From NCBI GenBank assembly GCA_027422505.1, contig JAPQWV010001095.1, positions 61,054 to 125,053 of the forward strand: a DNA stretch of 64,000 bases. The letters run 5' to 3'. How positions within the stretch are numbered: position 1 is the first letter of the stretch; every line of letters starts with the position of its first letter. The notes beneath the pieces were generated by a model. The model did no database searches. It was given only the letters and a program-made list of their open reading frames with translations, and was not told the DNA's origin. The DNA is from Craterostigma plantagineum. Lineage: Eukaryota > Streptophyta > Magnoliopsida > Lamiales > Linderniaceae. Shown one piece after another: positions 8,466 to 18,480 of this stretch. The position numbers and the translations under genes are program-made.

Positions 8466-8620
8466 CTTATAATGATGAATGTGCAGGATTTGAGAAGTTC
8501 GTTTGCTTAAGCTTGGAACTTCTTCTTTGCACGCTTCCCTTTTGATAGGAATGGGAGAGGAAAGATCTTGAACATTTTCGACTTTAATTTTCGAAGATAA
8601 TATTGACTTTCCTTGCTCCT

Positions 8621-11518
8621 TTTAACGACCCTCACTTTCTAATACTAATTATGGCGGATTTTCGCAACGTAAGTCGCGGAAGACCCGTCTAATATATTAC
8701 ATCAACGCACACATCTCGCAGAGTTATATTTTACAATATATACACCACTCGCACACATCTTATCCATTATTTATATTTTCAAAGACCACGACATGACACA
8801 CAACATAACTCTAAAGTCGCTCCACAGGTCGCATCCATGTACAGCCTCGCCCTCAAAAGTCCGTGGAACACCGCCGTCAGCCTGCCTAGTTGCGACGTAC
8901 ATCAGCGTCGGGCTCGGTACCTACAACACGTAAACTGAGCTCCTTGCCCAGTAGGTGAAACATGCATGTATGCAACGTGCGCTCGATCCCAACCCATACA
9001 TCTCACGACATGCACACTCGACCCTCATCTCAATCCATCGCATCTCACGACATGCACACTCGACCCTCATCTCAACCCATCACATCTCACAACTACCCGC
9101 AACTCAACACCATACACCCTCGGGTATCCCATTCAGGTCACTTTAGAATAGGAAGGCTTCTCAGGTCTCTTTAGAGTCGCCCGTTTTCCCCGAGTTGAGG
9201 TTCACGTTCGGTCTGCCCACTCAGCTCTCTTTAGAGTGGTACATACTGGAACCTTTCCCTCTATACCTACCGCTCGCTCGGCCCACTCAGGTCTCTTTAG
9301 AGTGGTACGTACTAGAGCACGGGCAGCCCACTCAAGTCTCTTTAGAGCGGCATACACCCAACTACTAACGTCCAACACTCGGGCGGCCAACTCAAGTCAC
9401 TTTAGAGTGCACGCACCCAAGCACCATCCTATCGCTCGGTCAGCCCACTCAGGTCACTTTAGAGTGGTACCTACTGGAGCACGGGCAGCCTACTCAGGTC
9501 GCTTTAGAGCGGCATCACCCATCCTCTATTCGACAAACGGACCAACACCACTCATCGACTTTCCCAAATGTTCCCGTTCCGCACGGTACTCCATTCCCTC
9601 GCACTGACATGAAATGCAAGTGTAGTGCATATAACATAACACATGACATGCAACATGTGTACATATGACATACGAAAATACTTAAAACATATAAAACATG
9701 TAATCCATGAAATTCACATAGGCACATAATCATGTAAGCACATAAATACCACATAATAATACCACATAATAATACACATAACCGTTTACGTGTCGTAGGT
9801 GTATTTCACCTACCTGTCCTCCTAATATCGCCAGTCGTGGTATCCCATGAAATGCCTAAACCTCGGAGCTCTGAACATATAAAATTATTAGTATCCATAC
9901 TAATTTTGAATTGTACTACTATAAAATAATTATATTCTAATACTAGTCTAAAAGTCGATGGTCAACTTATTAAACTAATTCGTCCGATTACACCATGCTT
10001 GAGAGTGAGTTTCGCTCAATACCTTTCAGCTCCCAAATCACCCTATTATCATGTCCAAAACTAGTTTCGCCGAGTCTCTAATCAATCGATATCTTAGTCC
10101 CTATATTGCCCGAAACCCCATACAATTATACACTTTCGATCGAAGGTTCATCAAATCGCCCGATTGCTCACCTTAATCTCTAGCTTCGTTCGAAGGTGCC
10201 ATCATTATGGTAACTAAAATCGATCGATCCCAGTAAAAAAATCTACGCGAACATGATATCGTTCAATACTTAAATTCACAATTCCAGAGTTGGTCGATTT
10301 GTCCTCTTAAATATTTAGTTTCACCAAAATGTAAAATTAAGTTATTTTCTAGAAAACCCTCGTTTCGGCCCATGCTTACACTACGCCCGATTTCTCTAAA
10401 TCCAGAAATTCATAGACTAAGAGCATCAAACCCTCAAATTTTCATAATTATATTATTAGATTTCAAGCAGCAAAACCTTCGAAGCTCCTTATATATCCAT
10501 TCCCTAATCTCGGAAATCTTAAAACCCTTAGAGAACAATCACTAATAAAGGCTTGAGAACCCAAGACCTTACTTATATATAGCATTTTAAGAACTGCCCC
10601 TAATTAACATCTAATCCTTCGAGCTAAGGAAACAAAAATAAAATACATATATTAAGTATTAAGTATACTAAAATTACAATAACAAGGGTCTTTACCTTCT
10701 TCACTTCAATTCTTTGAATTGTTTAAAGGTCTTTATGTGTTGGAATTCTTTTCACCTTCTCTTAATTCTCATCTTCGTTCTCCTCTCCTTTCTCTCTTGT
10801 TCGAGTACTTTTAACACTAATAAGTTATGATATATGAGCTTTAAACTTACTTGACGTATCTTATTTACTAAATGACGTTACTATTTATTCTTTATTCATT
10901 CTTATGAAAACTTTTAAGTATTACCCTTATAATATTAATTTATTCACTTCCCTCCTAGTTAGGTATAATCGAATATATGATAATTCTAAAAGCTAGTTTC
11001 CAAATAGAAAATATTATTATATGTGAATTATTACATACCTCTTTCCAACGATATATTATTTGGACTTAATAATGCTTCCACAAGTTCTAACTTTACATTT
11101 ACTCTCTTGTTCTCTTCTTGCTTTTTGGTTCTTAATTCATAAGATGTGGGTTTCGTTACTTTTGATATGATGAGTTGTTCATATCTATATGGAAGCATTC
11201 AATAATTGTGATAATTAAACAACTAAGTGACGTTAAATTACCTTGGCCTCACGTGATGTAATAATCTTTATAACTTTGTTTATAACTTATGTATTAAATA
11301 CAATCAATTTATTGGGCCTTATTCAAATATAAAATATTAGCCAATATTATTAGTCTTTGATTAAATTCCGGAATATTCGCCATACTATTTTATTATTTAG
11401 TTTCATCCGGATTTTTGTTTAAAAGTATTTATTAGGAGTTTTATTCATAATATTTTCTTCGCTAATTATCTTGAAATCTCCGATCGTAATCACGCTTTTA
11501 ATTTTTACGGGTATTACA
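8621..11518 (-). repeat. Element T full LTR (3' LTR)
   Basis: On the minus strand it starts TGTAATACCCGT (at 11518) and ends GGGTCGTTAAA (at 8621). The expected terminal CA is replaced by AA in every copy here. Its 8621-9561 part equals 13247-14187 except for a few bases (for example TTGCCC near 8950 against TTACCC near 13570, and one C near 9374). The rest is AT-rich and non-coding. Confidence 0.85.
8960..9515. repeat. Hairpin-unit tandem array inside element T LTR
   Basis: Two and a half copies of a 42-bp unit (catctcacgacatgcacac...) lie at 8999-9090. They are followed by eight copies of CTCAGGTCNCTTTAGAGYGG at 9130-9513, spaced about 30-66 bp. Full units read CCACTC(11 nt)GAGTGG, so each can fold as a 6-bp stem. 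The small ORFs here are repeat by-products. The array recurs in both arms of the right-hand palindrome (13586-14140 and 14280-14840). Confidence 0.75.
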
Positions 11519-11537
11519 TTCCTTCCCCCTTAAAAGG
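11519..11537 (-). other. Element T polypurine tract
   Basis: On the minus strand CCTTTTAAGGGGGAAGGAA directly precedes the LTR start TGTAATACCC, the expected position for plus-strand priming. This fixes the inner LTR edge at 11518 and the minus orientation. Confidence 0.85.
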
Positions 11538-11864
11538 AATTTCGCCCCCGAAATTCGCCGACTGGTAAAACTCGGGATAACAATTTCTTCTATTCTCTAA
11601 TCTGTTTGTATCCTATTTAGGTAGAATTTATTCCTACCTTTATAATATCACTCAATCTTGGCGACACATTTAAATGTGTGCCTCATATTCAGTTTCTGAG
11701 GATCAACAATTTATCTACGTCATCAAGACATATATATTCCTATTTCCACCATGCTTCCGCTGCGCAACTCTGATACTAAGCAAATATTATTATTATTTTT
11801 TTTAAAACTACAGTACGTGGTTGTACTTGTACTTAAATAGAGCAGGAATTATTTTTATTTTCCC

Positions 11865-12275
11865 TCACGTCATATATTTATTCGACCCGAATAAATAGGT
11901 GACTTTGGAATCAACTAATATAGGAGCGGGTATGCTTATAAGCAGTGCAACATACCTGTCATCATCAGTGGGTTCGGTTCTTCTTCCTCGTTTGTTAGAG
12001 TATACACCTGGGCTTGTGCCAGCAGAGGTCGTACTGGCGCTTGGATTGGGTTTTTGGGCCGATATTCTTGACAATCTTTGACAACATGCCCAAACTTTCC
12101 ACACTTGAAACATCGCGGTTTGTAATTGGGTCCAGCTCCGAAGCAAACGCCGGTATGGTATCGGCCGCATTGTGGACATTGAGGATTTATATTTGGAGGT
12201 CAAAACGGAAATTTAGTCACCCCTGGAATTTGTTTCGGTCGCCAGTTTTGATGTCCCTGACGATTATTCTGATTA
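11865..12275 (-). pseudogene. Element T Gag zinc knuckles fused to a dead protease start
   Basis: The minus strand encodes CPQCGRYHTGVC followed 13 residues later by CFKCGKFGHVVKDC (CX2CX4HX4C), the Gag nucleocapsid motif pair of Tekay-like chromoviruses. After a short linker comes ISIPAPILVDSKVTYLF, which occupies the place of the protease active-site stretch, but the catalytic D-S-G is D-S-K. The frame stops at 11865 and no further pol follows; about 330 bp of unrecognised AT-rich sequence lead to the PPT. A frameshift near 12275 separates this part from the main gag frame. It shows that gag-only status arose by deletion of pol just inside the protease. Confidence 0.85.
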
Positions 12276-13085
12276 CTATTGGGATACCTCATAATACTGT
12301 CGTTTTCGATTATTTCCGTTTCCTTGATGGTTATCAATCTTTTTCTTTGCCTCCTGAGCTGCCAAGATTTGAGATTCTGCCTGTTCTGCAATCATTGCTC
12401 GTTCTGCCACTTGAGCAAACGTTATTCCTCGCGTTCCAGCCATACTAACATCTCGATAGATCTCGGGTTTGAGACCTACTTGGAATCGCTCGATCTTTAA
12501 GGCATCGTTCGCCACCATATGCGGGGCGAAGCGAGATAGTTCCTCAAACTTGCGGATATATTCCGCGACGGGTTTTTCGCCTTGTTTGAGGTTGATGAAT
12601 TCATTCATCTTTCGGGTTCGATAGTAGGTTGTGAAATACTTGTCGCAAAACAGTTCTTTAAATCTTTCCCACGTCATAGTCATCGGGTCCTCCAAGATTT
12701 TGATGGTGTCCCACCAAAACCTTGCGTTCCCACGCAACATAGAGACAACGCATAACACTTTCTCGTTTTCGGGGATTCGGCTGTAGAGGAACATGTCCTC
12801 GACAGTTCGTAACCAATCCTCAGCCACGGTAGGATCGATAGCTTCCTCGAAAGTAGGAGGATTCAATTTCTGGAACCGTTCCCCTATGATCTCTATACGT
12901 TCAGGCTGAGGAGACGGTTGGTTTGTGGAGGAAACTTGGTGCTGAATAAGATTATTAATCTGATCCGATTGTCGCTGGATCAGTTCAGTTAGTCTCAGAA
13001 TCGTCGAGTCGCGTTCATGCACCGGGGACACATGTTCGTCCCTTCGACTCGAACTGCCTACGTAATCTCTACGTGTTCTCCTCAT
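12276..13085 (-). CDS. Element T Gag (retrotransposon gag domain), open
   Basis: The frame is open from 13130; I prefer the internal Met at 13085 (MRRTRRDYVGSS) because upstream residues are unlike the family. Residues about 50-230 form the retrotrans_gag domain: ERIEIIGERFQKLNPPTFEE, AEDWLRTVEDMF, GNARFWWDTI, WERFKELFCDKYF, MNEFINLKQGEKPVAEY, FEELSRFAPHM and GLKPEIYRDVS. The tail is Gln/Lys-rich. It would form the particle that packages element RNA. About 270 residues are intact before a frameshift joins the zinc-knuckle region to the left. It is the best-preserved gag in the window, in keeping with a recent insertion. Related N-terminal gag appears at 63696-64000. Confidence 0.88.
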   Translation of the reverse strand: MRRTRRDYVGSSSRRDEHVSPVHERDSTILRLTELIQRQSDQINNLIQHQVSSTNQPSPQPERIEIIGERFQKLNPPTFEEAIDPTVAEDWLRTVEDMFLYSRIPENEKVLCVVSMLRGNARFWWDTIKILEDPMTMTWERFKELFCDKYFTTYYRTRKMNEFINLKQGEKPVAEYIRKFEELSRFAPHMVANDALKIERFQVGLKPEIYRDVSMAGTRGITFAQVAERAMIAEQAESQILAAQEAKKKIDNHQGNGNNRKRQYYEVSQ

Positions 13086-13232
13086 TTTATCACTATCATA
13101 TAAAAATAGCCACATACGCAAATATATCATTTAAGCAAATAATCACATCGTACCGTAAAGCTTATAGGCAAGGCTGATCCTCCACGCTTTTGAGCGGCTG
13201 TACATGGACAGTCTACAGAACCTCTAACCTAA

Positions 13233-13244
13233 GCTCTGATACCA
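13233..13244 (-). other. Element T primer-binding site (initiator-Met tRNA)
   Basis: gctctgatacca is the complement of TGGTATCAGAGC, pairing with the 3' end of plant initiator-Met tRNA. It lies 2 nt inside the LTR edge at 13247, the same spacing as in elements B and C. Confidence 0.9.
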
Positions 13245-13246
13245 CC

Positions 13247-14187
13247 TTTAACGACCCTCACTTTCTAATACTAATTATGGCGGATTTTCGCAACGTAAGT
13301 CGCGGAAGACCCGTCTAATATATTACATCAACGCACACATCTCGCAGAGTTATATTTTACAATATATACACCACTCGCACACATCTTATCCATTATTTAT
13401 ATTTTCAAAGACCACGACATGACACACAACATAACTCTAAAGTCGCTCCACAGGTCGCATCCATGTACAGCCTCGCCCTCAAAAGTCCGTGGAACACCGC
13501 CGTCAGCCTGCCTAGTTGCGACGTACATCAGCGTCGGGCTCGGTACCTACAACACGTAAACTGAGCTCCTTACCCAGTAGGTGAAACATGCATGTATGCA
13601 ACGTGCGCTCGATCCCAACCCATACATCTCACGACATGCACACTCGACCCTCATCTCAATCCATCGCATCTCACGACATGCACACTCGACCCTCATCTCA
13701 ACCCATCACATCTCACAACTACCCGCAACTCAACACCATACACCCTCGGGTATCCCATTCAGGTCACTTTAGAATAGGAAGGCTTCTCAGGTCTCTTTAG
13801 AGTCGCCCGTTTTCCCCGAGTTGAGGTTCACGTTCGGTCTGCCCACTCAGCTCTCTTTAGAGTGGTACATACTGGAACCTTTCCCTCTATACCTACCGCT
13901 CGCTCGGCCCACTCAGGTCTCTTTAGAGTGGTACGTACTAGAGCACGGGCAGCCCACTCAAGTCTCTTTAGAGCGGCATACACCCAACTACTAACGTCCC
14001 AACACTCGGGCGGCCAACTCAAGTCACTTTAGAGTGCACGCACCCAAGCACCATCCTATCGCTCGGTCAGCCCACTCAGGTCACTTTAGAGTGGTACCTA
14101 CTGGAGCACGGGCAGCCTACTCAGGTCGCTTTAGAGCGGCATCACCCATCCTCTATTCGACAAACGGACCAACACCACTCATCGACC
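13247..14187 (-). repeat. Element T truncated 5' LTR, forward arm of palindrome
   Basis: The first 941 bp counted from the TTTAACGACC end of the LTR, nearly identical to 8621-9561. The remaining ~1.95 kb of LTR, including the TGTAATACCC terminus, is missing. A 43-bp joint (14188-14230) follows, holding two forward copies of the word CGCACGGTACTCC. Confidence 0.9.
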
Positions 14188-14230
14188 AACACCGCACGGT
14201 ACTCCATTCCCGCACGGTACTCCGTTCCGC

Positions 14231-15187
14231 ACGGGAACATTTGGAAAGTCGATGAGTGGTGTTGGTCCGTTTGTCGAATAGAGGATGGGTGATGCCGCTC
14301 TAAAGCGACCTGAGTAGGCTGCCCGTGCTCCAGTAGGTACCACTCTAAAGTGACCTGAGTGGGCTGACCGAGCGATAGGATGGTGCTTGGGTGCGTGCAC
14401 TCTAAAGTGACTTGAGTTGGCCGCCCGAGTGTTGGGACGTTAGTAGTTGGGTGTATGCCGCTCTAAAGAGACTTGAGTGGGCTGCCCGTGCTCTAGTACG
14501 TACCACTCTAAAGAGACCTGAGTGGGCCGAGCGAGCGGTAGGTATAGAGGGAAAGGTTCCAGTATGTACCACTCTAAAGAGAGCTGAGTGGGCAGACCGA
14601 ACGTGAACCTCAACTCGGGGAAAACGGGCGACTCTAAAGAGACCTGAGAAGCCTTCCTATTCTAAAGTGACCTGAATGGGATACCCGAGGGTGTATGGTG
14701 TTGAGTTGCGGGTAGTTGTGAGATGTGATGGGTTGAGATGAGGGTCGAGTGTGCATGTCGTGAGATGCGATGGATTGAGATGAGGGTCGAGTGTGCATGT
14801 CGTGAGATGTATGGGTTGGGATCGAGCGCACGTTGCATACATGCATGTTTCACCTACTGGGTAAGGAGCTCAGTTTACGTGTTGTAGGTACCGAGCCCGA
14901 CGCTGATGTACGTCGCAACTAGGCAGGCTGACGGCGGTGTTCCACGGACTTTTGAGGGCGAGGCTGTACATGGATGCGACCTGTGGAGCGACTTTAGAGT
15001 TATGTTGTGTGTCATGTCGTGGTCTTTGAAAATATAAATAATGGATAAGATGTGTGCGAGTGGTGTATATATTGTAAAATATAACTCTGCGAGATGTGTG
15101 CGTTGATGTAATATATTAGACGGGTCTTCCGCGACTTACGTTGCGAAAATCCGCCATAATTAGTATTAGAAAGTGAGGGTCGTTAAA
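14231..15187 (+). repeat. Element T inverted LTR arm of palindrome
   Basis: Reverse complement of the forward arm, ending GGGTCGTTAAA and abutting the target duplication CTCCT. At two diagnostic positions (TACCC rather than TGCCC before AGTAGG; GTCCCAACAC rather than GTCCAACAC) it agrees with the adjacent forward arm and not with the left LTR. It was thus copied from, or homogenised with, the right-hand LTR. Confidence 0.9.
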
Positions 15188-15500
15188 CTCCTTCCTAATT
15201 TTAATTTGTTCCTTAGCTAATTTTAAAGCTCTACTTTTACTTAACGTTTCAGCTTCAGTCAAAATTGACTTAGAATGATTAGTAAAAGCCTTCTCAGTTT
15301 TAGGAACAAGGATGTTCTTTTAGTTTTTGTTTTCTTTACCTGTTTTGAGCAAGATGTATTATTTGACAAATCATTTGAAACAGATAAAGACGGGGAATTT
15401 TTGAGATATAAAATCTCCTTTAAAAGCCTTCCTTTTCAGCGCCAAAACCTATCCTTTCAGAGTCCAAAGTATCTTCTAAATCTTTCAATTTACGAAGAGT

Positions 15501-17215: not shown

Positions 17216-18480
17216 GAACGAGGAAATAATCCGAGACCATTTTCCGGACGAGCATCTATATACTATATGTGAGGTCGATGAAACCCCATGGTATGCCGAC
17301 TTTGCTAATTATCTTGTCACTAGGATCATGCCAAATGGATACACAAGTCATCAGAGGAAGAAATTCTTCTCGGACTTGAAGTATTATTTTGGGGATGATC
17401 CGTATTTGTTTAGGGTTTGTGCGGATAAGATAATCCGCGGCGATGCGTGTCCTTTCCCGAGACGGTTAAAATCTTGAGTCATTGTCATTCGGGGCCATGT
17501 GGAGGACATTACGAAGGTAATCGAACTGCAGAAAAGGTACTCGAATGTAGTTTTTATTGGCCTACGATTTTCAAAGATGCTAAAAAATACATAGAGGAAT
17601 ATGATAGGTGCCAACAGACAGGTAATATTTCTAAGCGAAGTGAAAAAAGCCTCAAAATTTTATTCTTGTGTGTGAAATATTTGACGTCTGGGGCCTATGG
17701 ATCCGTTTCCTACCTCTTTCAAGAATCGATATATCCTAGTTGCGTTCGATTATAAAGGTAGCATTTTTGTAACACTCAATATACGAGACGCTCAAGAAAT
17801 ACGGCGTGAAACATAGTGTTACAACTGCATACCATCCTCAAGTGAGCGGCCAAGCAGAAATCGTAAATAGGGAGCTGAAGTGCATACTCGAGAAGACCAT
17901 GGAACACCATAGGCGGGATTCGCCGAACAAGCTGAACGATGCTTTATGGGCGTACCGGACAGCATACAAGACGCCTATCGGATCCACGCCCTACAGACTT
18001 GTTTACGGAAAATCTTGTCATTTACCCGTCGAGTTAGAACATAAAACGTATTGGTCTCTAAAAAAGCTAAATTTTGATTTGAATCTTGCAGGGGAAAAGC
18101 AAACTTGCAGATCAACGAGCTCGACGAGTGGAGGCAAATGGCTTACGAGAATACCCACCTCTACAAAGAGCGTACGAAGCAATATCATGATCGAAGGATC
18201 ATGAAGCGGGAATTCCAAGAAGGCGACCAAGTCCTGCTGTACAATTCACGGCTGCGATTAGTCCTAGGAAAACTGAAATCGAGGTGGTCAGGTCCATTCA
18301 CGGTGACTTGAGTATTTCCATACGGAACGGTCGAGATCACACACCCAGAAAAAGGGACCTTCAAGGTGGGCAGCGTCTCAAGCATTACTATGGCGGTGAC
18401 ATCGAAGCACTCGGGACGGAAACAATTCACCTCCTCAACACCACCCAGAGCTAAAAATCACTGAACTATGTCTAGCTAAA
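17216..18480 (+). pseudogene. Athila-1 integrase (internally deleted)
   Basis: It starts with the pre-integrase stretch [11 protein letters not shown] and the zinc-binding HCHSGPCGGHYEGNRTAEKV, where the first Cys of the C-C pair is Tyr (EEYDRCQ). Then DVWG runs straight into the sequence for the MGPF-like region, missing the codons for the GIDF segment; Athila-2 lacks the same bases. A further ~120 bp of the catalytic core are missing near 17757 relative to Athila-2. The [12 protein letters not shown] stretch with the catalytic Glu and the GPF/Y-type end ([11 protein letters not shown]) remain. Integration activity is impossible. Confidence 0.88.

Follow-up and report, generated by a model that had tools for sequence, protein, structure and literature searches.

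We analysed a window of 64,000 nucleotides (nt) from Craterostigma plantagineum (contig JAPQWV010001095.1, hereafter C1095, positions 61054-125053), which belongs to a genome assembly of 1.71 Gb in 6,262 contigs. The window contains, on the minus strand at 8621-15187, a gag-only Ty3/Gypsy-type retrotransposon copy that has the U5 part of its long terminal repeat (LTR) at both ends. Minus-strand strong-stop DNA is the product that starts at the tRNA primer, passes through U5 and R, and stops at the RNA 5′ end. We propose that a self-primed molecule of this kind, subsequently integrated, was probably the origin of the two-U5 copy.

Structure of the two-U5 copy

The left end of the element is formed by a complete LTR (8621-11518, minus strand), which is the 3′ LTR of this minus-strand element. 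Its U5 end lies at 8621 and its U3 starts with TGTAATACCC at 11518, and it aligns over its full length to the LTR of a relative, C37. The place of the 5′ LTR is occupied by an R-U5 segment without U3, the inner arm (13247-14186, minus strand), which reaches from R40 (numbered from R1, the putative first base of the RNA) to the U5 end. Beyond it follow a joint (14187-14247) and the outer arm (14248-15187, plus strand), an inverted R-U5 that ends at the exact U5 terminus. The two arms are 940 nt each, 61 nt apart, and 100% complementary to each other, an identity that was tested twice. A sequence-only reading of this DNA had described a 941-bp arm and a 43-bp joint. That structure is real, and the lengths given here replace the earlier ones, only the origin from which the joint is counted being different. 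The outer arm matches R some 20 nt beyond the point where the match of the inner arm stops.

The termini of the element, TTTAACGACC and GGTCGTTAAA, are mirror images with U5 at both, each beside CTCCT. The primer-binding site TGGTATCAGAGC (13233-13244, minus strand), which we take to be of the tRNA-Met type, is separated from the inner U5 end by the 2 nt GG (13245-13246). This GG is missing from both termini of the element, and the outer terminus corresponds to the U5 end that lies, as at the inner U5, 2 nt before the primer-binding site.

The target site is duplicated once and empty elsewhere

The target duplication CTCCT was exact at both ends (8616-8620 and 15188-15192), as the sequence-only reading had it. 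The insertion sits inside another repeat, so that paralogous empty copies were available for comparison. For the right flank 41 matches were listed, and eight loci (L029-L036) were fetched, none of them on the two contigs that carry the insertion. The empty site reads TTG-CTCCT-TCCTAATTT, with one CTCCT. A single CTCCT at the empty site had been set beforehand as the check, and it was present in 8/8 of the fetched paralogous copies. All eight aligned across the whole 400 bases of the joined flanks with 97.3-99.3% identity and one gap away from the site. The 21 bases across the site were identical in seven of them, and L032 had one substitution 7 bases to its right. The copy therefore shows an exact short duplication at a site that is empty elsewhere, as is looked for in an insertion by integrase.

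On the right side, the inverted U5 end is followed by the exact duplication and then by the right flank of the empty site. This order, together with the single duplication, comes close to demonstrating that the palindrome is older than the insertion, as had been argued from the sequence, and that a single event brought the two-U5 structure into the site. Copying of the left LTR at a later time, whether by fold-back or break-induced, was rejected, since it would put the inverted left flank after the outer U5, where the right flank was found. A second LTR, nested or solo, was likewise rejected as the origin of the inverted arm: a single duplication encloses the two termini, and the arms do not differ from each other.

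The earlier suggestion that integrase used two U5 ends fits the U5 termini lying beside a 5-bp duplication, and the duplications of normal relatives (GGCGG, CGTAA and ATACT) are also 5 bp long. The copy resembles the product of ordinary Ty3/Gypsy integration in its 5-bp duplication, its single concerted insertion, and its 2-nt spacer between U5 and the primer-binding site. Ordinary integration, however, acts on TG...CA ends and joins U3 and U5, whereas this copy was joined through U5 and U5, and both of its ends are AA instead of CA.

A second contig carries the same insertion

The same insertion, with the same joint and both flanks, was found at C1318:12974-19540, and the joint measures 61-62 nt across the two contigs. 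Over 17,753 bp, C1095 and C1318 differ by 6 substitutions and 19 indel columns (99.86% identity over 17.8 kb). An independent second insertion was rejected, since both flanks match those of the window; C1318 thus represents the same insertion on another contig, either a haplotype or a duplicate assembly, and as evidence it may not be fully independent of the window. C1318 carries an extra ~110 bp at window position 17752, and the contigs diverge after about 22 kb.

The two arms share bases that differ from the left LTR

The diagnostic bases by which the inverted arm had been traced to the right-hand LTR proved to be real. The left LTR has G at 8946 and no additional C, the inner arm has A at 13572 and an extra C at 13998, and at both positions the outer arm has the state of the inner arm. 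The two arms share a T where a C stands in the left LTR and in 18/18 near-relative sites. In a run of G, one base was lost in the left LTR alone and is kept in the arms and in 17/17 relatives. Genome-wide, the C form was found at 225 sites and the 26-mer with the T form at 9 sites. Four of these 9 are the arms on C1095 and C1318, and the remainder belong to five other members. These five were rejected as the source of the arms, being only 75-77% identical to them. The private T shared by the arms as against the left LTR thus points to one common molecule or template for both arms, different from that of the left LTR, unless later gene conversion made the arms alike.

The joint is a mosaic of sequences from R

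The putative 5′ end of the RNA, R1, is the first G of GGGAATGG at 9598 (minus strand), and a TATATG (9628-9633, minus strand) begins 35 nt upstream of it. The AGGG at R1 is kept in 22/22 aligned rows, comprising the window and its relatives. The joint was decomposed into exact matches of at least 7 nt against the region from R1-400 to R1+200. Read in the orientation of the element, antisense R runs to R22 and is followed by sense R13-25, R7-20, R1-20, R50-59, and R40 onward. Successive pieces overlap by 4, 2, 2, 2, and 3 nt, in that order, which amounts to five short template jumps, all within R1-R59. One of the pieces begins exactly at R1 (GGG), 35 nt below TATATG, and no piece carries U3 sequence. 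When random junctions were simulated in R1-60, overlaps of at least 2 nt arose in 18% of sense-sense cases, and the product for the five observed overlaps under random junctions was ~4.5e-6, a post hoc figure. With R1 placed as above, the R-U5 palindrome turns at the RNA 5′ end, as is expected of self-primed strong-stop DNA. Within the joint, TTTGG of the window is TTTGGG in the second contig, and the one-base gap of the window is therefore not part of the event.

Gag content and relatives

The internal region is 1,727 nt long, and Gag is its sole open reading frame (ORF) of at least 150 amino acids. The capsid ORF (12276-13130, minus strand) matched the profiles PF03732 (Retrotrans_gag, E 1.3e-20) and PF19259 (Ty3_capsid, E 2.4e-11), and is thus a Gag of the Ty3/Gypsy type. 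Its frame stops before the zinc knuckle, and the CCHC zinc-knuckle segment (11939-12199, minus strand) lies in a different frame. A polypurine tract, AAGGGGGAAGGAA (11519-11531, minus strand), as read from the sequence, adjoins U3. Frames of 60-115 amino acids were also listed in the internal region.

Plant TR-GAG elements, as characterized in PMC9784723, have LTRs around an internal region that encodes Gag only. Judged on ORFs of at least 150 amino acids, the internal region of this copy likewise encodes Gag and no Pol. Its relatives C37 and C16 agree with TR-GAG in their normal LTR-internal-LTR form and 5-bp duplications. C37 has two direct LTRs with TG and CA ends and the target duplication GGCGG, and C16 is a tandem array of four LTRs and three internal regions, with one 5-bp duplication, CGTAA, at its bounds. 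In both C37 and the C16 array, the internal region is 1.7 kb long, and capsid and CCHC share one open frame. In this copy and in C1 no single open frame holds both, so that the frame was intact in 3/5 of the internal regions examined, two of those three being from the C16 array. The family would thus behave as a TR-GAG. In contrast to TR-GAG elements, this copy has no 5′ LTR containing U3, its U5 termini are inverted, and its broken Gag frame does not reach the zinc knuckle. In place of two direct LTRs there is a single complete one, together with R-U5 as an inverted pair. We therefore class the copy not as a normal member of a TR-GAG-like family but as a rearranged product of one.

Two other elements with inverted parts were observed. 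The relative C64 (L015:5340 to L016:3734) has normal U3 and U5 ends and the duplication ATACT, and a part consisting of U5, internal region and U3 is inverted between the outer LTR parts; this inversion is possibly another rearrangement that predated integration, such as autointegration. C8 (L022:7979-9225) is a 94.6% palindrome of a related short element. It turns within U3 and contains a U5 piece, a primer-binding site, an internal region of ~0.4 kb, a polypurine tract, and the start of U3.

Discussion

The sequence-only reading had left the origin of the palindrome as self-primed or template-switched reverse transcription. That general origin is supported, and we propose to narrow it to minus-strand strong-stop DNA, since the joint lies at the presumed RNA 5′ end and the outer terminus is the tRNA-primed start less the 2 nt GG. 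The narrower account would run as follows. Two tRNA-primed strong-stop DNAs (U5′-R′) would be made in one particle. One of them would make the normal first transfer and give rise to a minus strand with the complete left LTR. The other would fold back or anneal at its 3′ end, opposite the GGG of the RNA 5′ end, and by short jumps and self-copying would extend into R-U5 and the primer-binding site, producing a hairpin of the form U5′-R′-R-U5. The 3′ end of the hairpin would then pair with the primer-binding-site complement of the minus strand, taking the place of plus-strand strong-stop DNA at the second transfer, and the minus strand would copy the hairpin to the tRNA-defined U5 end, so that no U3 would be added. 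Finally, integrase supplied in trans would trim the 2-nt GG off both U5 ends and join both in one concerted event; the absence of GG from both termini is expected if integrase trims 2 nt.

The initial step has a known counterpart. According to PMC4668388, strong-stop DNA made in vitro from the G3 form of HIV-1 RNA anneals through its 3′-CCC, either intramolecularly or to a second molecule, and extension then proceeds to the 5′ end of the primer. As in the reaction covered in PMC4668388 and PMC3141651, a 3′ CCC opposite the GGG of the RNA 5′ end would here anneal to itself or to another molecule and be extended toward the primer end, and there, too, short complementarity is enough. The known product is abortive and comes from in vitro or virion settings, whereas the product postulated here would have become part of the element again by way of the primer-binding site and then been integrated. 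PMC3141651 terms self-priming a suicidal reaction and reports that nucleocapsid suppresses it. A connection between this suppression and the broken Gag of the present copy is possible, as a lead only.

In an intermolecular template switch, a growing minus strand, after passing through the primer-binding site, U5 and finally R, would move from R to a second, free strong-stop DNA and copy it to the tRNA-defined end, the inner arm being the primary strand and the outer arm the copy. This would yield the same structure with the same exact U5 end, and when the joint is read in this direction, one piece goes from R20 to R1, the RNA end, before the next jump. Template switches by HIV-1 reverse transcriptase with 2-nt complementarity are also mentioned in PMC4668388. 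The inner arm would normally derive from plus-strand strong-stop DNA, however, and should then continue into U3 and match the left LTR; instead, U3 is absent from it and its match is to the outer arm. We therefore regard such a switch as an unlikely origin.

Host end joining before integration could also have made the palindrome, if polymerase theta, for instance, linked an incomplete cDNA with its 5′ end in R to a double-stranded R-U5 end in inverted orientation, and integrase then used the two U5 ends. The short templated pieces, the overlaps of 2-4 nt and their confinement to about 60 nt of the joined ends resemble theta-type filler, yet two separate DNA ends would be needed that both stopped near R1 and both carried the private T, and a strong-stop-like R-U5 DNA would still be required as substrate, which makes this route improbable. 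An assembly artefact or a rearrangement after insertion is very improbable. Palindromes are a known long-read artefact, and double assembly of a single locus may account for the two contigs, which show 6 substitutions and 19 indel columns over 17,753 bp. However, neither a read artefact nor a fold-back of the left LTR would make the inverted arm stop exactly at the U5 terminus, with the duplication next to it and then the right flank known from the empty site, and the same 61-62-nt joint is on both contigs.

Several observations weigh against integrated self-primed strong-stop DNA as the origin. Short templated pieces are also typical of end joining by polymerase theta, and the pieces in the joint by themselves do not prove the action of reverse transcriptase. 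An alternative 7-nt match, at R114-120, falls inside longer pieces. R1 as the putative RNA 5′ end was placed from sequence features, and the TATA-like motif above it is TATATG in 12/22 rows, TGTATG in 8/22, and neither in two distant rows. Gene conversion after the insertion could also have spread the private T between the arms. The event is a single case as well: an exact scan for the fold-back pattern, with anchors 31-91 nt apart, over the whole 1.71-Gb assembly found only this insertion (2 forward and 2 reverse matches; 0 in controls). The 18-mer anchor of the pattern occurs 164 times in the assembly, and one insertion among so many anchors indicates that the event is rare.

The ends themselves also count on this side. 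The U5 ends at 8621, 13247 and 15187 all read GTTAAA, as against GTTACA in 18/18 near relatives, and the usual terminal CA expected of integrase substrates is missing at both joined ends. The conserved CA was altered in the source of this element, and integrase action is therefore deduced from two other features, the duplication and U5 ends that are exact. In the assembly no near copy with GTTAAA turned up that could be the source; the 27-mer of GTTAAA plus primer site occurs elsewhere only in a distant tandem array. Two sites in that array, C1:9913818 and C1:9917337, were rejected as the source, the LTR there being only about 75% identical. In this array (L038, C1:9909500-9919400), the U5 ends are GTTAAA in 2/3 and GTTACA in 1/3.

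Within the open-licence literature, to which our search was confined (subscription literature lay outside it), no integrated precedent was found. Self-priming of strong-stop DNA usually counts as a dead end, but on balance it seems likely that this does not hold in every case. The R-U5 hairpin would take the place of plus-strand strong-stop DNA, allowing an LTR element to be completed although it gains no second U3. A Ty3/Gypsy integrase would then insert the product in vivo by its two U5 ends, and a heritable element with terminal inverted repeats of ~940 bp would remain. If this is true, a retrotransposon has come to end like a DNA transposon, and the copy preserves, as an integrated fossil, a reaction that is familiar chiefly as a by-product of reverse transcription in vitro. 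One locus would then give three readings, namely the RNA start, the behaviour of the strong-stop 3′ end, and the in vivo use of U5 with U5 by a Ty3/Gypsy integrase. The element also holds a warning for annotation tools, as its terminal inverted repeats and target duplication are like those of a DNA transposon. Other genomes can be searched for the same signature, which combines an R-U5 palindrome located at the RNA 5′ end, termini that are both exact U5 ends, and a single target duplication, and such scans would yield the natural rate of self-priming and of second transfers that use the wrong strong-stop DNA.

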